Origin: Proales similis
Lineage: Eukaryota; Rotifera; Eurotatoria; Ploima; Proalidae
Reading direction: 5' to 3'
DNA: 64,000 nt
NCBI GenBank assembly: GCA_019059635.1
Contig: JAGVRJ010000001.1
Location: forward strand, 3,162,001 to 3,226,000
Shown: piece by piece, positions 1 to 52,183 of the stretch
How the letters are laid out: every line of letters begins with the position of its first letter
Position numbering within the stretch: the first letter of the stretch is position 1
Program-made: the position numbers and the translations under genes
Notes under the pieces: generated by a model
Database searches by the model: none
What the model was told of the DNA's origin: nothing
The model's input: the letters and a program-made list of their open reading frames with translations, nothing else

Positions 1-2502
1 GACCGCACCGGCCGATTGGATCGAGCTTCTGGGTGCCACGTTGTCGAAGAAGCCTTTGCTCACACTCAGGAGAGGCCAGTTGCTTTCTTGCTGGCTAATT
101 GGCACTGGAGGCATGAGAAGCTTGGCGTTCGGATCAGTGTCTGGAAGGAGATCTTCGATTCCGCTTCCGATTCGCTCGGCTTCCTCCTCTAGATTGTGCG
201 TCTTGGCGGTCAAATATGCAAGAGATCGCTGCCCACAGTTCTCAAGGATCTTCACTCGCTCTTCGACATCGCCGAGTAGAGTGGCGATCTGGAACTGTCC
301 ATTCACGTCCTTTCGCACCTCGGCGATTTTCATCATTTTTCTCAACTTTTCCAAGTTGCCAGTTATCAAGTAGAGGAACGACAGCTTGTCAAAGTTCTTT
401 GTTCGTTGGTAGCACATCTCCACAATCTGGTGATTGCCCTGCATCAGAGCTGCTTCGGCCAGCTTTTCCCAGCAGTACTTGTCGTCCAGCGCTCTAGCAG
501 ACTCCAAGGCGATGTCAATGTTTCCGCATTCGAGCGCCAGGCCGAAGCGAGTCTTCTCGTCCTTGACAAAGTGAAGCGCCACTTCGGGGTAGCCTTTCTT
601 CTGCAAATACGAAATGATGCTCTGTCCAATGAGCACAGCGTTTCGGACCATGTGCAGGACCTCGTCGTAGCGGCGATTGATCAATGCCAACTTGAACCGG
701 TACTCGGTCGAGTCGATGTTCATTATTCTGGGCCGAATCTCACGATCCAAACAGTAGACTGCGTTGCCCTTGATTTTGGTTATGTAAACTGGCAGGTCGA
801 GGGTTCGAATGATGCCGTGATCTCCGTTGGTCAACGCGTACTTTATATGGTTGCTGGTGGTGTAGATGAACACATTGTGCTCGTCCCAGGCGCCTGACTT
901 GACTCGTGTGTTCTCGCTGATCGAGCACAGTTGGTCGAGCTTTTTGTCGCAGATCACAATCTGGTGCCGAGCCAGAATGGCCACGAATGCCATGTCGTTC
1001 GACCAGACCACGTATTTGGCTTTGGGCACTCTGACCGAGGCCAAGTTTCGCTTCTGCTGCACATCGTACATGGTCACCATATCGCCCTCTTTGACCATTA
1101 GATTGCCAGTGCCGGCGAAGAATATCTCCTCGCAGTTGGGCAGCTGAATTTTCTTGGTCGTCTCGTTCTTGAGGTTTTTTATGTGGATGGTCTGGTTTTT
1201 GTCCATAATTGCGAAGCGATTGCGAGCCACCCAGACCGCACTCATGCCGGCCGATCGGCGCCCCTCAGGGGCGTCTGGATTCGACTCGTTCGCGTCCTTG
1301 GGAAGGTAGTACATGTCGTAGTAGTAGCTGTCCGGGTTGTTGTTGGGTCGAGTGGTGAGCAGGACCGCATTCTCCGCCGGATTGAACGACATGTTGAAGT
1401 AGGGAACGCGCACAGGATTGCGCAGAGTCATGAGCGCAACATCCTTCGAAGTGGTAAAGTCAAGCCGCCTGAGTGTTTTCTCTTTCACGTAGAAGAGCAG
1501 ATTATTGTAGATTGAATAGGCAGGCCGTTCTCGTTTCAGCTTGAAAATGACCATTCCATTGTCATGGCCAGCCGCGAAGAGGTTCAGGGTGGGATGAGCT
1601 GCAATGACCCAGTAGCGATCGTGCTCTCGCTTGAACTTGAATAGGCTGTCTCGTTTGGTCATATCCCACACAATGATCGACTTGTCCTCTGAGTCGCTCA
1701 CAATGATGTCTTGCTTCGGATGAAATATCACGCAAGACACGTTGTTCTGGTGTCCACGGCACGTGTCCACCTCCCACGCTTTGGTGTCGTTCATTCGCCA
1801 CAGTTTCACTTGGCGATCGTCGGCGCCGCTCACAATCAGCGGAAGTGTAGGATGGAACGAAGCCCAGTTGACTCCTCGGTCGTGGCCTTCGAGAACGTGC
1901 TTCACCACGCCGTCTGTCTGTCCGAACAGGTCCGGAGTTCCGGTCGATCGCTGCAGCTGAGTTTGGAAGCTGCCTGGACCTGGCGCCACATTTTTCTTTC
2001 TCAGGCCCGAAATGTCCCACACTCGAACAGTCTGATCGAGCGAGGCAGAGACAATCAAGTCCTCAGACGGATGAAACTGAGCGCACATCACATAGTGGTT
2101 GTGGCCAGTCAGCACGCTCACACAGTTGCGTGACTGCCAGTTCCAGATACGAATCGTCTGATCGTCCGAGGCGCTCACGATCCACGGATATTCGTGATGG
2201 AAAAACGTCGTTCGGATGTAGTCCAAATGGCCGAGCAAGGTGAACAGACACTTGCGCTGTTTGTAATTCCACACCTTGATTTTGTAGTCGTCGCCGCCGG
2301 ACACAAACAGAGGCTGTTGGTTGTGGAAGGCAATACCTCGCACAGGTCCGTCGTGCTCGTCGAATTTCTCGATCATGGTCGACATTCTGTAGTCCCAAAG
2401 TTGAACTGCACCGCTGTGCAACGAAGCAAGTACCCATGGTCGCTTTGGATGAAAGGCTAGACCCTTCACTCGCGCCGATTTTGTTTCCAGCTTAACCAGC
2501 AT
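1..2502 (-). CDS. COPA: Coatomer subunit alpha (alpha-COP), N-terminal 834 codons
   Basis: Alpha-COP is the scaffold of the COPI coat that returns cargo from Golgi to ER and binds dilysine tails through its N-terminal WD40 propeller. Read on the minus strand, the frame opens at an ATG at 2502 ([19 protein letters not shown]) and stays open to the window edge, so the C-terminal part, roughly a third of the usual ~1220 residues, lies outside. The first ~320 residues are WD repeats typical of the family (for example [19 protein letters not shown] and [16 protein letters not shown]). A second beta-propeller and the start of the alpha-solenoid ([20 protein letters not shown]) follow. No intron is seen in 2.5 kb, unlike many neighbours. 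A TTTTAG acceptor-like site ends 9 nt before the ATG. Family assignment is by recognition of the sequence and is very secure. Confidence 0.97.
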
Positions 2503-3028
2503 GCTCACAGTCTAAAAGCTCTGCTCAGTTCTTTTCTAATTAATTCAACAACCAAAAAAAAACAGCAAAAATTTGGAAAAAAAAAAGAAATTCTCAATTC
2601 GCATGACACGTATCAAAGCCGATGGGCGAGAGTAGAGAGGCGACGAGCGTACGTTCACGATTCTCGGCAAATTCATAATTTTTGCAACACAACATCTCAC
2701 CGCCAACTTCGATTGTCATCTCTCAAAATAAAATTGACCAATTTTTGAATTGGCAACTTGACAAGCAAGTTACGTATGGCCGGTTTGAGTAAAGCTGCAA
2801 GATATTCGATATCTCGCCGGACCATGCGAACAAGAGCTGAACCAAATAAGTTAGTTTACTTAATCGGTGCACGAGAGAGAGAGAAAGAGACTAAAGAGCC
2901 GAATTTAAATTCAATTTTTTATTCATTTCATCTGGTTTGGTGACTGCTTTTAGTAGAGAAATAAATGGGTAATTTGAAATCAAGTTAGAAAGATGTCTCT
3001 CTGCTTTTACTGAAGGTTCTGTGTTGAC
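2503..3028. other. Intergenic, COPA promoter side / neuropeptide 3' flank
   Basis: No supported coding sequence. The part next to COPA is A-rich (runs of A at 2553-2585) and should hold the COPA promoter and 5' UTR. The part next to 3028 is the 3' flank of the neuropeptide gene and includes a short GA run near 2873-2890. Confidence 0.5.
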
Positions 3029-3704
3029 TTATTTGCCGTGGACAAAGCGTTTACCATGAACGAAACGCTTGCCATGAACGAATCGTTTGCCGTGAACGAA
3101 TCGTTTGCCGTGAACAAAGCGCTTGCCGTGGACAAAGCGCTTTCCGTGCACAAAGCGTTTACCATGAACGAATCGCTTTCCGTGAACGAATCTGGCCTCA
3201 ATGCTTCAGAGAAAGACATTTCGAATCAGTGGTCAAGTGAGTTGAGGGGGGAAAACGAAATTTGACATACTCATCTTCATCGTCGTCAGAGTCCTCGGGA
3301 TCCTCGCTCTCGTCTAGGTCGAAGAAGACTGGCTCAAGGACTTCTCTTCCATGAACGAATCGGGCCTCGACACTTTGGATTAAAGTGCATTGAATTGGTC
3401 GATGGGAATTGACTTTAGAGATGAGTCTCTACTCACGGAGCGTACTCATTCTCATCCTCCACGTCGCGTCCATGAACAAATCGAGTCTCTGGCTGTCTCA
3501 TGTTCAGCAAGTCGGCGAGAATTTGGCCGCCGCTTGCCGGGTTAACGGTGTTGGCATTCTCTTCAGTCTTGCTCACAGAAGCTTGTTCAGCCTTGACGTT
3601 CTAATGCATGCGAGCTTGTTCTGGAAAATAGAGAACGCATCAAGACCTACCTGAGCAAGGCTGACAATCAAAACAATGCCCATGGTTATCAAGGCGGCTT
3701 TCAT
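3029..3704 (-). CDS. Neuropeptide precursor with 11 RFVHG[K/R] copies (predicted FVH-amide)
   Basis: Four exons on the minus strand join in frame: 3704-3651, 3600-3437, 3372-3271 and 3203-3029, giving 164 residues. Introns are 50, 64 and 67 nt, GT-AG, with phases 0, 2 and 2. Residues 1-18 (MKAALITMGIVLIVSLAQ) look like a signal peptide. A spacer follows, then ETRFVHGR, then VEARFVHGR, each followed by an acidic linker. The last exon begins IEARFVHGKR and continues as tandem FVHGKR units to a final RFVHGK-stop, nine copies there and eleven in all. G followed by K/R is the standard signal for dibasic (or monobasic) cleavage and C-terminal amidation, so the predicted product is the tripeptide FVH-NH2, or RFVH-NH2 if the leading Arg is retained. 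I do not recognise this peptide among families I know. The precursor architecture is clear; the mature form is inferred. Confidence 0.88.
3031..3199 (-). repeat. 18-bp coding tandem repeat (FVHGKR unit)
   Basis: About nine copies of an 18-nt unit encode the terminal part of the peptide precursor. The copies vary at third positions while the encoded hexapeptide stays the same. It is not a CRISPR array: there are no spacers and the repeat is in frame with a spliced secretory precursor. Confidence 0.9.
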
Positions 3705-4377
3705 TTCTTTCTTCTTATCGACTCACTATTCGACAAATTGGTGAAATTTTGCGACAAAGCTCTTCTATTTATAAATTGGAGGCATTAATCCACACTCGCA
3801 TTTCGTCATGATTTTGTTTTCAGAATTGAGTAGGATGAGTAGGCAAATGTCAACATTTGAACGGGCAAATTGCTTGATGAGCTGGAGGAGGAAGCGAAAA
3901 TGCAAAGTAGAGAAGATTAAGGTGAAAGCGAAATGCATCTACAAGCGTCACAATTTAAGCCAACAAACGCACAAATTCGAATGTTAGAGCGCAAACGAGT
4001 CACGTAACGGGCGAATTTAGATTTTCCAATTACCAGCAAAACATGCCACCAAATTCCTTCTCTCAACTTGAATCTGCCCTCATCGCTTTAGACGGCAAAC
4101 ATTTCGTTCGTCTCTACCCTTGTCAGACGCAATAAATGAAGATTATTTCTTCATTCCTCCCTTTAATCTGCTCTCATGCACGCCACTAAAAGAATAAAGC
4201 TTAAGGCGTCAGAGAGACCTTTTTGCCTAATCACGATAGATAGAAGCTCGATGGCGTGAGAGGGTTCGCTTCGAAATAAAGTCTAATCGTTTGGACGATG
4301 CTGCAGACTCAGACAAGACGCACTTGCTTTATTACTTCAATTAATTACATTTTCGAGTCACGATCGACATTCAGGCA
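3705..4377. other. Intergenic, neuropeptide promoter and BCAS2 3' flank
   Basis: No gene seen. The sequence just above 3704 should hold the promoter of the peptide gene: TTTATAAATTG at about 3767-3778 (plus-strand reading) lies about 65 nt upstream of the ATG and would serve as a TATA-like element on the minus strand. The rest is AT-rich unique sequence. Confidence 0.4.
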
Positions 4378-5407
4378 CTAATCTGCTGTGCTCGTTTGCT
4401 CAGCCTGTTGAGCTTTATTCTCGTCAGTGTCGTTCATATTGTTCCCTGCAGAATTTAGTTGTTCGGCCTCTTCCAGCCCCTTGTTAAACAGCTCCGGATG
4501 TTCTCGTTCGAACTGAGCGATGGCGCATTCAATCTCATAGTTTTTGCTCACGAGACCGATCCAGCTTTTAAATGGCAGAAAAAAAAAATTGTCAAGTTGA
4601 AAATCTCCGAAAAAAATATCGAAAATAAAAAATCAAAAGAATTGCAAGGCCAAATAAAAAGGCCCAAGATGGATGGCAAGATGGAAGCAGGCACCTTTGC
4701 TGAAGAAGTTCGATCTGACTTCCGGCCGATAGCTGTTCTCGTTTGCGGGTTAGATTCACTTGCTGGACTCGGTCTTTGAGCTCGTCGAGTTGCTTTTCCG
4801 ATCTCTCCAACATTGAGCTCAAAGTTTGAATGTATATGCGCCAAGCGTTCGCGCCGTGCTCAGACATGATCTCCAAATTGACGATTCTGAATTTCACTTG
4901 GTCGTGATTGCAGATTGTTTCAAAGAGTTTAGCTCGACTGCTCTACTTGCCTTGAAACTTGATGCTCCAACTGAGCATACGAGTTCTGTACACATTTGAA
5001 CCATTCATTTACATCTGTTTGCTTGGCGGCCGAGGGCGGAGGCAACTCGTATCTTTTCCAGCTGAGCACTTCCATGGGCTGTCTTTGCTCGATGCGCTTG
5101 AACTCGTTTCGAAGCAGCTCTGTCTGTTGTTGTTCAAGTTTTTCTCTGACTGCCTCTGCTGTTGATGGTCTTGAGCTTACCTCGAATGCGTCGTATTTCG
5201 CCGGTCCCAGATAGTCAATGTAGTTTTTGTGCGGCTTGTATCTTCGACACTCTTCCTCGATCAGGCCCGCTATCTTTTAATCGAAGCAATAAATTAAAGA
5301 GCAAGAGCACAAGTCGATTTGAGGCAGCATACCGACTGTCTAACTCCTGGCTCGTCGTAGCCAGCGTCGATGTAGGGCAGCGCGTCCACAAGCTCTTCGT
5401 TGGCCAT
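4378..5407 (-). CDS. BCAS2: Pre-mRNA-splicing factor SPF27 (BCAS2)
   Basis: BCAS2/SPF27 is a small core subunit of the PRP19/NTC complex that activates the spliceosome. The first exon starts at 5407 with MANEELVDALPYIDAGYDEP, which matches the conserved VDALPYxDxGYxxPGVR start of the family. The next exon carries the conserved EEECRRYKPHKNYIDYLG, and later exons form a Gln/Glu-rich coiled coil ending in a polar tail (EEAEQLNSAGNNMNDT and onward) with a stop at 4378. Introns are short, around 50-150 nt. The gene lies only 80 bp downstream of GatB on the same strand, with an AATAAA and then a TTTAG acceptor-like site 11 nt before its ATG, so the two could share a primary transcript. The exact internal splice sites of the coiled-coil exons were not all resolved. 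Confidence 0.93.
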
Positions 5408-5487
5408 TTTTACTTTATCTAAACGCAAATTTTTCACAAAGTTTATTCCAAATCGCAACCAAGTGTGAACAAGTGAAGAGTGTCAAC
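5408..5487 (-). promoter_or_regulatory. 80-bp GatB-BCAS2 intercistronic gap with polyA and acceptor signals
   Basis: Read on the minus strand, GatB stops at 5488. An AATAAA follows (complement around 5440-5446), then GCGTTTAG, then ATAAAGTAAAAATGG, which is the BCAS2 start. A polyadenylation signal directly followed by a 3' splice site before the next ATG is the arrangement found between genes of trans-spliced operons. A cis 5'-UTR intron starting inside GatB is unlikely but not excluded. Confidence 0.45.
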
Positions 5488-7242
5488 TCAATCGAGCAAG
5501 TTCTTCAGCTCTTGCTGAACGAGCTGGTCGACCAGTTCGGGCTCGGCGCGATCTTCGAATTTCTTATGCAGGCGACCGACAAAAAAGTCGAATATCTTGT
5601 GTCGCTTGTTCACTTTGCTTTTGTATTCTTGCAGAGCTTTTGAGTTCTCCTCGAACAAGTCAAACAGGGCGGCTCGAATCTGTTCGACGTCGTTCACAAT
5701 AAACAGATTCTCGTCGCTCGCAATCTCGTGCGCTAGCTTTTCAAAATTACTCAACTCGAACAATTTGGCGAAAAGCAGCTTGCGCACTCGAGTGCTCACG
5801 CGATTCTGTTCAAACAGTTGCACAAAAGATTTTATCTTTTCGCACTTGAGCTTCGAGTCAAATTTGCTCATGTCCGCATTGACCTTGAGCTGATGCAAAT
5901 ACTCGAACAAGAGGGTGCGAACGTAAGGCTGCACCTGCTCCTGGGTGAGCGAATGGCGCGACTCGCCCAACATCTCAATCATCAACGAGTCCAAGTCGTT
6001 TGCGATGAACGTAAATGCTTTCTCGTCGTTCAACATGTACTCTTGCTTCATACGCTCTCGTCTTTGCTGAGGCAACACTTGTTTCTCTAGCTCTTGTTTT
6101 ACTTTGTCAAGGTCGACAAAGTCCAGTGAATTTTCGCTTCGCAGTTTCGCAAACGTTTGAACCAAATGCGAGTCGAATATCAGCTCTGGATTGTTCTTGC
6201 AAACAGTGCTCGTTGGCTCGGAGTCTGGCGCCAAGCTCTTGGCCGGAAATATGAAAAGAGGAGGCAGATTCGGCTCGGGCATGAATCGGTAGTCGTATTG
6301 ATCCTCTTTACTTCTAATTGACTGGCTCTTGCCTGTGTTGCTGTCGTACGAGCGAGTTTCCATTCTCACTTTTTCGCCCTTTGATATTAGACTCTTCTGA
6401 CGCTTGATTTCCAACTCGGTGGCCTTGAGTAATGAGTTGAAATTGTTCAAGTTTTTCAGCTCGACTCGAGTGCCTGGCAAGAGCTGCTGTGTGCGCTCGT
6501 CCAGCTCGTGCACTGAAACGTTAACGTCCACACGAAAGCCGCCCACAGCCATCGCTGCGTCAGACGAGCCGATGGAACGCAGCAAGAGCGCCAGCTCTCG
6601 AGCGAACGAATACGACTCCAGAGCGCTCTCAAAATCGGGCTCAGTGACGATTTCCATCAGACCGATACCTGCTCGATTCAAATCGATCAGTGTTGTGTCC
6701 TTGTTCAAACGATTGCCGCCGGTGATCATCTCTTCGTCCACATTTAGTGTTCGGGCGCTGTCATGCTCGAGTTGAATACGGCGTATTCTACATGACCTGT
6801 AGCTGAGCCTGTTCGTTTGAGCACTTATAACTGGATAGGTGAGTCGGCCGTTGACTGCAATCGGCCTCTTTTGCTGAGTGATTTGATAGCCGGCGGGCAG
6901 ATCGGCGTAAAAGTAGTGCTTGCGTTCGAATATGGAGAAAGCATTTATTTGACAGTTGAGCGCGAGAGCTGTGAGCACGGCTTGCTCCACGCAGCGTCGA
7001 TTCAGAGTCGGCATCGAACCGGGTAGGGCTGCGTCGAAATAGGACACGTTCGAGTTAGCCAGCGTGTTCCTCAGATCATAACAGTTGGCGTCGCTGAATA
7101 TCTTCGTCTTGGACAATATCCGCGCATGAATCTCCAAACCGACTCGGGCCCTGAGGCTTTGGTTCGCTTCTATTTCAGCCGCGCTGGTTTTCAGACCACG
7201 ACAGACCAACAGTCCGTTGAGACGGACAATACTGAAACGCAT
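5488..7242 (-). CDS. GATB: Glutamyl-tRNA(Gln) amidotransferase subunit B, mitochondrial
   Basis: GatB is the kinase/transamidase subunit of GatCAB, which converts Glu-tRNA(Gln) to Gln-tRNA(Gln) in mitochondria. The single 584-codon frame begins MRFSIVRLNGLLVCRGLKTS, which is basic and lacks acidic residues, as in a mitochondrial presequence. The GatB signature follows: VGLEIHARILSKTKIFSDA, the LPGSMPTLNRRCVEQA region, YFYADLPAGYQITQQKRPI, QLEHDSAR, LIDLNRAGIGLMEIVTEPD and YDYRFMPEPNLPPL. The C-terminal half is the helical/YqeY-like tail domain. Length fits animal PET112 (~550-560 residues). There is no intron. The start was chosen because it gives the presequence, and the next upstream in-frame region is the 333-bp intergenic gap. 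Confidence 0.97.
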   Translation of the reverse strand: MRFSIVRLNGLLVCRGLKTSAAEIEANQSLRARVGLEIHARILSKTKIFSDANCYDLRNTLANSNVSYFDAALPGSMPTLNRRCVEQAVLTALALNCQINAFSIFERKHYFYADLPAGYQITQQKRPIAVNGRLTYPVISAQTNRLSYRSCRIRRIQLEHDSARTLNVDEEMITGGNRLNKDTTLIDLNRAGIGLMEIVTEPDFESALESYSFARELALLLRSIGSSDAAMAVGGFRVDVNVSVHELDERTQQLLPGTRVELKNLNNFNSLLKATELEIKRQKSLISKGEKVRMETRSYDSNTGKSQSIRSKEDQYDYRFMPEPNLPPLFIFPAKSLAPDSEPTSTVCKNNPELIFDSHLVQTFAKLRSENSLDFVDLDKVKQELEKQVLPQQRRERMKQEYMLNDEKAFTFIANDLDSLMIEMLGESRHSLTQEQVQPYVRTLLFEYLHQLKVNADMSKFDSKLKCEKIKSFVQLFEQNRVSTRVRKLLFAKLFELSNFEKLAHEIASDENLFIVNDVEQIRAALFDLFEENSKALQEYKSKVNKRHKIFDFFVGRLHKKFEDRAEPELVDQLVQQELKNLLD

Positions 7243-7575
7243 CGCTTTGAAGCAATTGTCTCAAAAGTGAATTGAGTGGTTTTGTTGGTGAGTTCTAGGC
7301 AGTCAGACCTAAATAGACTGAAATCTGGATCGAGTGCGGTCAGCAAATGAGCTTTAAATAGAATTTTATTTCTCTGCTAAATCGATCGAATAACAAGTCA
7401 AATGGATAAAATCCGCTGTGGTGTGCGCGTGAAGAAATTTAAATCAAAAGTGTCATAATATAATAGTTGCAACAAAGAGTTCAAGTCAAAACTAAGATTT
7501 CACTATGTGCTCCGTTTGCCGTTGGCGTTTTGCTTGAATTAAGTTTTGATTGGCTAAGCTTGAGCTCCTCAGGTT
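7243..7575. other. Intergenic, GatB promoter side / aconitase 3' flank
   Basis: About 330 bp between the aconitase stop and the GatB start. A CTTCAAAG acceptor-like sequence ends 2 nt before the GatB ATG on the minus strand. No gene is supported. Confidence 0.45.
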
Positions 7576-10500
7576 CTAAAGAAATTTTCTTATCATGTAG
7601 TTCAAGATGCCGCCGTTCTGGTAGTAGCTCAGCTCCACATTCGTGTCCAGTCGGGCGATCACTTTGAACTTGAGGCCAGTGTTTGTCTACAACAGCAGCA
7701 CTATTAGACCGCAATTAAGTAAATTAGAATTAGCAATTTCTACCTCGACATCGACTTGCTGCTTCACGCTGAGGCTATCATCCAAGTGAATGGTGAACTT
7801 CTCACGGCCAGTCAAGCCAAGGCTTTCGGCACTTTGTCCCTCGATGAACTGGAACGGGATTATGCCCATGCCGATCAAATTGCTTCGATGAATTCGCTCG
7901 TAGCTCTCGGCGATGATTGCTTTCACACCCTAGATCAAGGAAAACTGACTTTTGCGGGCCTAGGATGAGATTGAGGGCAAATAAGCTTACCAGCATCCAT
8001 GGTCCTTTGGCAGCCCAGTCTCTCGACGAGCCAGAGCCGTATTCTTTGCCGGCGATGAGAATGATCGGAATCTGCTGCTGTTTGTATCGCTCGGCAGCAT
8101 CGAATATGTCCATCACTTCGTTTGTTGGCATGTAAATGGTCTTGGGGCCAACTTGAGAGCCCATAAGTTTGTTGACGAGGCGAATATTTGCGAAGGTGCC
8201 TCTGGACATGACCGAGTCGTTTCCACGTCTCGAGCCGTACGAGTTGAAGTCTCGAGGAGCGAGGCCGCGCTCTGCAAGATACTTGGCGGCCGGACTGTTG
8301 CGAGCGATGCTACCGGCCGGTGATATATGATCGGTTGTAATTGAATCGCCCAAATAGAGGAGCAGATTGGCGTCGCGAATCGGCTGAATGGGCTGGATGT
8401 CAATTGACTGAAAGGGAACGGTTTAAGTCGGCAAAAAAGTAAGTAATTGTCATCAGCCGGCAATTTACCATGTTTTCGAAGAAGGGCGGCCTCTTGATGT
8501 ATGTGGAGCTGGCATCCCACGGGAATAGGTCACTTTGAGGAACTTGGAGGGCATTCCACTGGTCGTTGCCTTCAGTGATCTTGTCATAGACCTTGCTGAA
8601 CATCTCCGGGATCACATAGGCAGTCTCCATCTCCTGAAGTTCGGACCGAGTTGGCCAAATGTCGGAGAGAAATACGTCACGGCCCAGCGCCTCGCTGTAG
8701 CCCAACGGCTCTTTTTCAAAGTCAATGTCAATTCGGCCTGCGATCGCATACGCAATAACGAGAGGTGGCGAGGCCAAGAAATTGGCCCGAGTTGACGGAT
8801 GAATTCGGCCCTCAAAGTTGCGATTGCCGCTGAGCACTCCGACGGCAACCAATTCATTCTAAAGTTTCGTCGAATCTCATTAAATTTCGGAAAGGAGCGA
8901 GCTCGAGTCAGAGCACTCACTTGCTCAATGGCTTCGACAACGCTGTCAGGCAATGGTCCGCTGTTTCCGATGCAAGTCATGCAACCGTAGCCAACAATGC
9001 TGAAGCCGAGCTGCTCGAGGCAGGGCAGCATTCCGCTCTTGGTGAGGTACTCGGTGACTACACCGCTGCCAGGCGAAAGACTAGTCTTGACAAACGGCTT
9101 CACTCGCAGACCGCAGTCGATCGCTTTCTTGGCTATGAGGCCTGCAGCCAGCATGACCGATGGATTGCTGGTGTTGGTGCAAGAAGTGATGGCCGCAATC
9201 ACGACCGAGCCGTGTCCAATCGAGTACTTTTCGCCCTCGTATTCAAAAGTGACCTTTTTGTCGACCAGGTCGGGCTTGAGTCCGAAACCGTTGAATCCGA
9301 CTTTGTTGGTCAGCGAGGCTCTGAACTCGTTCTGAAGTTCGCTCACAACTATCTTGTCCTGCGGCCTCTTCGGACCGCTCACACAAGGCATGACAGTGGT
9401 GAGGTCAAGTTCGACTACTTGACTGTAAACAGGCTCGTCGCTCTCGTCAAGGTAGTTTCTGTAGAGTTTCACCGTCTTCAGGTACTCTTCGATGTAGCGA
9501 ATGTTAAAGGCAGAGCGTCCGGTCTGGTTTAAATATTGAATGGCCTTTTCGTCGGCAGAAAAGTAGCCAATCGTTGCGCCGTACTCGGGACACATGTTGG
9601 CGATTGTTGCACGGTCGGCGATCGACAGCTGTGCCACTCCCGGTCCATAGAACTCGACAAATTTGCCCACAACGCCCACTTGACGCAGATGCTTGGTGAT
9701 TGTGAGCACAACGTCGGTCGACGTGCACATCTCGTTCAGCTTGCCGAAGATTCGATAGCCAACAACTTTGGGAAGGACCATGCTAATCGCCTGACCAAGC
9801 ATGACCGCCTCAGCTACAAGTCACGCGTGTGAATTAGTCTAGTTCAAACGCCTTCGAATGGGACCTGGCCTCACCTTCGATGCCACCGACGCCCCATCCA
9901 ACGATGCCGAGACCGTTGATCATTGTGGTGTGTGAATCAGTGCCCACCAAACTGTCAGGATAGAGAAGGTTTTGCTTGTTGAAGACGACTCGCGCCAGGC
10001 ACTCCAGATTGACTTGATGGACGATTCCACTGCCAGGAGGCACAATCAGCATATTCTTGAACGCTTTGGCGCCCCACTGTGTTTGTTGAGTGGTGAATGC
10101 GGCCGAGTTTTGACCAGAAAACACGATGCTCACCTTGAGGAACTGAAATCGTTCATGATTTCGTTGAAACTCAAGCTCCTGATTGCGCTTTAGAGCCTCG
10201 GCGCTGAAATTCAAAAGAAGAGAAAAAGAAAGAGATTAGCAACTCCTGTGATCGATTAGTGGTGTTGTTGGTTTAAAGGTGACTTCAAAGAGCGAAATGA
10301 GGGCACATTAATATCAAGCATGCTCTAACGTGGCGAAGCATCGTTCGCAACACAAAGCCAAGTACCATTCAGTTTCTACTTGATGAAAAGGACATTCGAT
10401 GTGCGCGGTTTCAACCACAATCTGGTGATTATACTCGTTGCCGTTTACATAATTATTCATGTTATTGAGTAAGTAAACTTTTTGATTGCGGAAATTTTGG

Positions 10501-49450: not shown

Positions 49451-52183
49451 TTAAACGGTGGTTTGAGCGGCCGGGTTGAAGTCATTCTTGCCCGAAACGG
49501 ACTGCGAATAGAGTGGAAGCGTACGATTTGGCGGCGCCCGGCTTCCCAGGCCCAGAGCGCTCTCGTGCATCAGTTTTGAGCTGTCCCCATTCAGACCGGC
49601 TGTTGAGCGCTGCAGTCCAAAGTGGTTCAAGAGTAAATGCGGGAAAGCAGAGTGAGCCGCCATTGCTGCCGCTGCGGCCGAAAGCTCATGGCTTTTGGCT
49701 TCGCCTTTGTTTTGCTTCTGCTGCTGCTGCTGTTGTTGTTGTTGTTGTTGCAAGTATGTGTAAAGAGTATAAGATTTGTCCAAATATTGCGTTTTGGTGT
49801 GCTCGTTCGGCAGTCTGGCCTCTGCGTCCTTGTTCAAGTCCATTCGCATTTTCATTATTTTCAACTGATACTTGAGCTGCTCATTCTCGGCCTGCATTGT
49901 GGATTTGAACTTGAAAATTAAGCGAGAAATGAGTTGATGCGTATGAGCTTTGTGTCTGGTGAGACTGACTTACCTCTTCGAACTCGGTGACCAGCTTCTC
50001 TTTGAATGCGTTCTGCTCGTTGAGCTTTTCGCTGAGCTGAAGGTGAAGTCGAATGACGAGTTGACGAAGACGTTCGCTAATTGCCTTGTTCTCCACCGAG
50101 CTGTTTATCTCGTTCAAAATGGACTCGAGCGTCTGCAATTCGCTCGAGATTTGCTTTGACTTGCTACTAAAGTGATTGCTCTCGGGCGAAAGTGAAGAGG
50201 CCGCGTTCGCCAATGTGTGCAGACCGTTGCTGACGCATGACTCGGCCGACGAGCTGTGTCGAGAAGGCGAAATATTGCTCGCTTTCAAGCTCGCCTCGTG
50301 ATCACATTCTTTTGCTTTGCCTGCTCTCATGACCGCATCGGTCTCGTTCACAATAGAGCCGTTGAAGGCCAAGCTAAGCAGAGCACTGTTTGATTTTGAT
50401 GCCTCAACAGAGGAGTTCAATGGCTTGGACAGTATTCCGTTGAGCAATTTGTGTTGGACATGATTTGTTTTGTTTGCGCCGGCCTCCGAGTTGGCCGCAG
50501 CCGCGGCAGCGACCGCAGCAATAGCGTTTGCAAGTGAGCCGTCGCCGTTCGAATATTTGCCCGCAAACAATTGATTGTTTAGCTCATGAAGGCTCAGCGG
50601 CAGGTAAGTACCAGCGTTATGCCGCTTAGCGCTGTCCGAATGCTGTCTGAACGGCAGCTCGCCGGGCTCACTCTCTTCAGCCAGCGATTTTCTCTTGAGC
50701 GCCCTATCCTCTGCCGCCGAGCCGATCAAATACTTTTTCTTAAAAGCCTCAAATTGCTCGCGTTGTCTTTGCTGCTGCTGTTCAATTTCAATATCTTCAC
50801 CGGTTGTCGGTACGCCCTGGGCGCTCGAATGTTGTCCATGACCACTGATGCGCATATAGGATCGCCAGTTGGCCGAGTCGAAGCCCCAGTGCTTAGTGAA
50901 CACCTCGTTCTTGTGAGAATGGCAGACGAAATGCTGAGGCGAGAACCATTTGCCGCACGAGTCGCACTGAACACACGCAGCGCCTGGTCTGTTGTACATT
51001 TGCGGAAACAAATGGCCGTAGGTGCGGCCAAAGCATTCGTGCATTATCTTAATACTCGAGCTGGACGGCGGTCGCCTCAGATGCTCGGCTGGCAGTGCCG
51101 GCTCGAGCAAATGAGCGCACAGACGCTCCGCGTTTGTCAACGTGAGTAGGCCGCAGTTGGGCGCGCCTGGCGGCAATAGGTTGCTTTTCTTTAGAATCTC
51201 AAGCTGCTTGCTTGTGGACTCGAGACACGCAATCTGCAAACGTTGACAGGCCGTGTTGATCTGCTGGACGCTGAAATCCTTCAGGACGCTGTTGAGAATG
51301 TCGTGCAGACAGAGGCGCTTCTCGCCGCCGACTATGAAACAGGAGATGCGCTCGCCGTGTAGAGTAGTTTCCATCAGCTCGCTTGTGCTCGTGTCGGCTT
51401 GAATGCAGCGCAAGTAGCTGTGACGGCTTGAGCGCGATCGAAACCGTTTGTGATGGTGATGGTTGTGCTGATGCATTCCGTGGTGATTGTGTTTATGGTG
51501 ATTGTGGTTCAATTTCGCAGCACTTTCTTCAACTCTCTTCATGTCTTCAACCTCCTCGCTGGGCTGGTGCGCCTCTTGATTTTGAAGATGAAACAGGTCC
51601 ATCTCTTGTCTGGACGGCCCGTTCACGCTGCTCAATGATGACTGCTGATAGATTTTGAGGAATTTCTTAAGTCTCGGCTGCATGCTGATGGACTGGTCGC
51701 TGGGTTCGGTTTTGCTCGAGCCATTTGCCTCTGCTATTTCCTCGTCAATGCCGTCGTCTTCTTTCATGCTTGACTTGTTCGATAGCGGCGGAGTGGCATC
51801 AAAGCTGGGCTTGAGACCTACAAGAGGCGGCTTTGTCACCTCTCGGCCTCGTCGCTGCTCTTCTCGGAAGCGGAGCTCGACCAGCCGCTGCTAATTGGCT
51901 CTACAACGACCAGGGGCTGTTCGTCCGCCTCGTCTTTGCTCTGCTCTTCGCTGATCACCAAAGACTCGGGCGATGCGGCTTCATCATCATCGGCCGCGTC
52001 TGTCTGTTGCTCTGTCTGCGAAGGCGCTTCCTCTTGTTGCACTTCAAACTTTTGGTCTCGATCGGCCGTTCGCTCTGGCTCGCTAGTTTCTTGCTTGGCC
52101 AGCAATTCGGCTCGATCATCGGCGGCTGACCGTTCAATCGTCTCAGGTGACGTTTTCACAGTCGTCTCTTCAGTTGAGGACAT
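49451..52183 (-). CDS. Ski/Sno family transcriptional co-repressor
   Basis: Ski/Sno proteins bind Smads and N-CoR and repress TGF-beta/BMP target genes. Exon 1 (52183-51840) is acidic and disordered. A 71-nt intron (51839-51769) joins it to exon 2, which includes LKKFLKIYQQSSLSSVNGPS, matching the LQKTLEQFHLSSMSSLGGP motif of Ski that binds N-CoR/R-Smad. A His-rich linker (HNHHGMHQHNHHHHKRF) follows. The Dachshund-homology domain reads ISCFIVGGEKRLCLHDILNS and CGLLTLTNAERLCAHLL. The SAND-like Smad4-binding domain reads ACVQCDSCGKWFSPQHFVCH and HWGFDSANWRSYM, with the Cys/His zinc ligands intact. The C-terminal coiled coil spans the last intron (LNEQNAFKEKLVTEFEE joined to FKSTMQAENEQLKYQLK), followed by an 11-residue polyGln and a hydrophobic/Ala tail. 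Ski versus SnoN cannot be decided; many invertebrates have one gene. Confidence 0.94.

Follow-up and report, generated by a model that had tools for sequence, protein, structure and literature searches.

A predicted multicopy FVH-amide precursor gene in the rotifer Proales similis

A gene of the tiny marine monogonont Proales similis very probably encodes a multicopy precursor of a neuropeptide or peptide hormone, with FVH-NH2 as its main product. The gene lies on the minus strand at 3704-3029 of the window, a stretch of 64,000 nucleotides (G000:C1:3162001-3226000; GC content 47.3%) from a 15-contig assembly totalling 32,716,893 bases. FVHG occurs eleven times in the predicted protein, the total claimed by the first-pass annotation, and R or K follows in all eleven. 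The glycine-plus-basic amidation signals on which that annotation built its neuropeptide reading are thus present in every copy. FVH-NH2 is probably a new peptide, encoded by a well-known kind of gene.

The gene and its precursor protein

The four-exon model proposed earlier for this gene stands, together with its coordinates. Three GT-AG introns of 50, 64 and 67 bp divide a coding sequence of 495 nt, stop codon included, which translates into 164 residues. Exon 1 (3651..3704; this and all following parts of the gene are on the minus strand) holds the start codon and the hydrophobic core of the predicted signal peptide (MKAALITMGIVLIVSLAQ). Intron 1 (3601..3650) is in phase 0; an intron 1 of only 30 bp was ruled out as an alternative, since the frame of exon 2 is then lost. 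Exon 2 (3437..3600) encodes the end of the signal peptide, likely cut after VKA at residue 22, a spacer, copy 1 of the repeat in the context ETRFVHGRD, and an acidic spacer. After intron 2 (3373..3436, phase 2), the 102 nt of exon 3 (3271..3372) encode copy 2 (VEARFVHGRE) and a long acidic spacer. FVHGR of copy 1 at 3467..3480 (G000:C1:3165467-3165480) and of copy 2 at 3346..3359 was in each case matched over 14 bases by a DNA pattern. Exon 4 (3029..3203), which follows intron 3 (3204..3270, phase 2), encodes the last part of the spacer (IEA), followed by the array of nine units and by the stop codon. A possible TATA box, TATAAATA, is located at 3766..3773, 69 bp upstream of the start codon, and a possible polyadenylation signal, AATAAA, at 2918..2923, about 106 nt past the stop codon; both are motif matches only.

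On the genomic strand exons 2, 3 and 4 are each in a different frame, and once they are spliced RFVHG falls in a single frame. The sequence is consistent with the model, and splicing in vivo would be expected to follow it. Exons 3 and 4 also begin alike, after introns of the same phase: 21 of their first 30 bases are identical, as against 15 of 30 at the ends of the preceding introns, which weakly suggests an exon duplication. The neighbouring aconitase gene has an apparent intron of 57 bp, read by eye with its junctions placed by reading and not by alignment, so the short introns of the precursor gene seem usual in Proales similis.

Downstream of the precursor gene, at a distance of 526 bp and in the same orientation, is a coatomer alpha gene whose start codon is at 2502. 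The coatomer gene is identified by Pfam, and NCBIfam gives no match to it. Coatomer alpha, GatB (5488-7260) and aconitase (pieces within 7802-9820) are all on the strand of the precursor, and this same-strand cluster at 1-9820 could aid searches for synteny. Elsewhere in the window, at 49881-51890, Pfam finds a SKI/SNO homologue with Dachshund-homology and Smad4-binding domains, which fits an animal genome.

The amino terminus of the protein is strongly hydrophobic. Averaged over 11 residues, hydropathy peaks at 2.92 for residues 4-14, and it does not exceed 0.99 in any segment starting past residue 25. Signal-peptidase sites follow a -3/-1 rule, and the possible site VKA|EQ has V at -3 and A at -1. 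Judged by hydropathy and this rule a signal peptide is predicted, and it would likely be cleaved there. Residues 64-107 form an acidic stretch in which 21 of 44 residues are D or E and two are K or R. The protein contains no cysteine among its 164 residues.

Each of the eleven FVHG copies is preceded by R. They differ in what follows: R and then D or E in two, KR in eight, and K and the stop codon in the last. The two single RFVHGR copies among acidic stretches described in the first-pass annotation are found in exons 2 and 3. Its nine tandem FVHGKR units are nine in number as claimed, except that the ninth reads FVHGK-stop instead of FVHGKR. When the same 164 residues were shuffled 20000 times, FVHG never occurred more than twice.

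This layout bears on whether the product is a neuropeptide precursor at all. Repeats rich in His, Lys and Arg can have other roles, and peptide signalling does not follow from a signal peptide by itself, so a secreted repeat protein of structural, metal-binding or antimicrobial function might be considered. Such a protein is quite improbable: the Gly and K/R after 11 of 11 copies, the KR between the array units and the acidic spacer make up the classic layout of a precursor, and Pfam returns no match above its cut-off for the protein.

Constraint on the repeat and searches of the genome

The array (3032..3193) consists of nine 18-bp units encoding RFVHGK, and Tandem Repeats Finder detects it at periods of 18, 36 and 54 bp; the two higher periods suggest that units were duplicated in blocks. 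Seven of the 18 nucleotide columns vary among the units. These are the third position of all six codons and, in the arginine codon (AGA in one unit, CGN in eight), the first position as well. At least 10 substitutions separate the units, and all are synonymous. In the FVHGKR frame none of the six residue columns varies, whereas in the other five frames 6, 6, 6, 6 and 3 of the six columns do, and two of these frames hold stops. The plus strand and the other array frames were thus rejected as the coding frame. The encoded peptide looks conserved, as the units differ only synonymously while the five other frames vary. Assuming independent substitutions, the chance that all would be synonymous is 6.5e-7 to 3.8e-6, depending on the weight given to transitions; since duplication or homogenisation of the units makes substitutions less than independent, the test is weaker than this number.

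The 18-bp repeat has several open frames, as might a non-coding or decaying minisatellite whose reading frame has stayed open by chance. This explanation is exceedingly improbable, given that one frame of six is invariant in spite of at least ten synonymous changes and that the motif also comes into frame, after splicing, in two upstream exons.

The whole genome was searched with a DNA pattern for FVHG followed by an MRN codon, which stands for K or R and also for N, S, H and Q. It gave 83 matches, 11 in the precursor gene and 72 scattered ones, of which the closest two are about 5.2 kb apart; the reversed control gave 64. A protein search of the genome with the array returned 12 matches, with E=3.8e-30 at the precursor locus and E=0.003 to 0.04 for the other 11. 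These 11, all on contig C3, were considered as a second array locus and proved unrelated, for the 577-residue frame concerned runs antisense to an EPEKK-repeat frame. By pattern and protein searches no second cluster of FVHG with a basic residue was found elsewhere in the genome. On the same contig, the locus L003 (G000:C3, locus 81-2093, minus strand) shows a long EPEKK-repeat frame and then, by eye, an apparent immunoglobulin-type domain.

Processing and the mature peptide

The signal peptide would direct the precursor into the secretory pathway. There a prohormone convertase would cut after each KR, and probably also after some of the lone R residues. A carboxypeptidase would then remove the C-terminal basic residues, which in the last array unit is a single K, and the exposed glycine would be converted to an amide by PHM/PAL. 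By this layout each precursor would yield eight copies of FVH-NH2, and up to eleven. The peptide would be expressed in neurons and would act most likely on a G-protein-coupled receptor.

The first-pass annotation had left the product as FVH-NH2 or RFVH-NH2. Standard cleavage at KR favours the former, as in eight of the eleven copies F comes directly after KR and only FVH-NH2 would result; RFVH-NH2 is unlikely to come from the array, where it would need a cut between K and R. Matters differ at copies 1-3, namely both single copies and the unit that opens the array, which share E[TA]RFVHG and have a lone R, and no dibasic site, before F. Peptides with an N-terminal extension, for example DVEDENEYAPVEARFVH-NH2, are therefore possible there. 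The calculated [M+H]+ is 401.2296 for FVH-NH2, 557.3307 for RFVH-NH2 and 2017.925 for DVEDENEYAPVEARFVH-NH2. The active products of the same precursor could even be such extended peptides ending in RFVH-NH2, for instance from copies 1 and 2, with the tandem FVH-NH2 of secondary importance. Cleavage at single R is known and depends on its context, with another basic residue reported 3-6 positions before monobasic sites (PMC8557429). In copies 2 and 3 none of the eight residues before the lone R is basic. In copy 1, on the other hand, another R stands five residues before it, within the reported distance (PMC8557429), which would favour a cut that frees FVH-NH2. At the other end of the peptide, the GR of copies 1 and 2 likewise has an R five residues before it, again within that distance (PMC8557429). 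The extended products as the active ones, a reading that overlaps with that of FVH-NH2 as the main product, are unlikely.

Sites of this lone-R kind also occur at another precursor-like locus of the genome. L046 (G000:C2:952515-952649, plus strand) reads EEKRSLPRFGRTFPRMGRALPRMGRSYPRIGRTFPRMGRALPRMGRAMPRMG-stop and contains PRM-, PRI- and PRF-amide units of the types SLPRF-, TFPRM-, ALPRM-, SYPRI- and AMPRM-. In every unit but the last, G and a single R come next; after the last stand G and the stop codon. These units, divided by G and a single R, suggest that lone GR sites are used in Proales similis. L046 resembles the FVH precursor in its putative hydrophobic start, which lies upstream in another frame, in its acidic stretch, and in a terminal array running into the stop codon. 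It differs in its longer and variable units and in the GR instead of KR between them. A search of solved structures with a piece of L046 gave chance-level matches only.

By sequence comparison the genome is shown to contain genes for the convertase, 7B2 and PHM-type amidation steps. P-domain convertases gave nine matches at seven places, and four loci were read; one of them, L038, carries a WASGDGG stretch whose Asp we take to be typical of PC2. 7B2 (secretogranin V) has one match in the genome (E=1.2e-18), which spans a part of the family. The 14 matches to Cu2-monooxygenase correspond to pieces of exons rather than to 14 genes, and three of them were compared with solved structures. Peptidylglycine alpha-amidating monooxygenase is the best match of both L011 on C11 (E=1.3e-27) and L012 on C12 (E=9.6e-15, 72 residues aligned). 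L009 on C6, the best match to the PHM family, was dropped as an amidating enzyme, its best match being dopamine beta-hydroxylase. The number of exon matches indicates that the Cu2-monooxygenase family may be enlarged.

Relation to known peptide families

The precursor was earlier said to match no known family. This holds against five family groups when each is judged by its defining end, in a comparison of motifs and of the literature searched. RF-amides are defined by their RF-amide end, whereas the FVH copies end in VH-G. TRH and EFLGamide peptides end in pGlu-His-Pro-amide or EFLG-amide; they are short amides like FVH-NH2, and TRH is likewise a tripeptide, but the FVH copies have no Gln start and no EFLG, and neither QHPG nor EFLG occurs in the 164 residues. 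F[V/L/I]amides, which are linked to the Mytilus inhibitory peptides, and PRQFVamide resemble the FVH precursor in being amidated and multicopy and in having an FV pair; in them V, L or I is the amidated end, while the FVH copies end in H. The names of these two families are taken from PMC8557429 and PMC6425005.

The RGWamide and APGWamide precursors of spiralians also hold many very short amides, and in some of these precursors adjoining copies may be released as GW-amide dipeptides. Their peptides end in W-amide, and most have two C-terminal cysteines 20-30 residues apart with a phase-0 intron between them (PMC8557429). The FVH precursor, by contrast, ends in H-amide, lacks cysteine and has introns of phase 0, 2 and 2. 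NdWFamide of Aplysia is an endogenous spiralian amide of three residues and thus of the size of FVH-NH2 (PMC11277431); it contains D-tryptophan and is of another sequence, and the NWF-amide end is absent from the FVH copies.

The claim that FVH-NH2 would be among the shortest peptide transmitters is right as to its very small size; it would not be unique, with GW-amide and NdWF-amide as precedents. In Sepia, mass spectrometry detected dipeptides of GW-amide, and in brachiopods and nemerteans precursors of tandem layout are predicted to release them (PMC8557429), a precedent for very short amides from directly adjoining copies. The ctenophore VWY-amide was discarded as a tripeptide precedent, as its mature peptide has 16 residues (PMC9525235).

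FVH-NH2 could instead belong to a highly derived member of the F[V/L/I]-amide, RF-amide, RGW/APGW-amide or TRH/EFLG-amide families. FV and RF pairs occur in those families too, and Syndermata, the rotifers and their kin, have had no deep neuropeptide sampling (PMC8557429), so that intermediate forms may have been missed. Another rotifer, Brachionus plicatilis, is reported to have an APGW/AKH precursor (PMC10730642). The probe of the present genome with APGW/RGW found no array and that with F[V/L/I]amide found nothing, empty answers that show nothing either way. Against a derived member stand the His before the amide, which lies outside the defining end of each family, and the lack of the cysteine pair of RGW/APGW precursors. 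Moreover, the RF-amide probe had as its best match in the genome the PRM-amide-type, precursor-like L046; it also matched L047, in which no clear layout of a precursor is seen. Membership in one of these families is doubtful, though less so than the extended products discussed above, and as it overlaps with the reading of FVH-NH2 as the main product the two are not exclusive.

FVH-amide strings, including RFVHamide and FVHGKR, did not occur in the open-access literature searched, from which subscription journals are mostly missing, nor was FVH-amide named in those titles and abstract beginnings on rotifer or gnathiferan precursors that were listed. Viral and prokaryotic contigs, collections not expected to hold rotifers, contained no relative of the precursor. 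Rotifer nervous systems are reportedly stained by anti-FMRFamide, to judge from the titles of papers. FCAP-related peptides are described from three species of Rotaria, and FMRF/RY-amide precursors have been assigned to Rotifera (PMC6425005).

There is about an even chance that FVH-NH2 is a tripeptide-amide transmitter that founds a family of rotifers or gnathiferans, with its own receptor, and separate from TRH and from the W-, RF- and FV-amide families. Syndermata and other gnathiferans are under-sampled, and their survey has been called the next frontier of spiralian peptide genomics (PMC8557429). FVH-NH2 is easily synthesised and could be screened on the receptors of an animal with a genome of 32.7 Mb; Kim et al. 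in 2021 reportedly announced, in their title, a set of 401 GPCR genes. If the reading is true, FVH-NH2, a tripeptide amide present up to eleven times in its precursor, would rank among the smallest peptide transmitters that are encoded.
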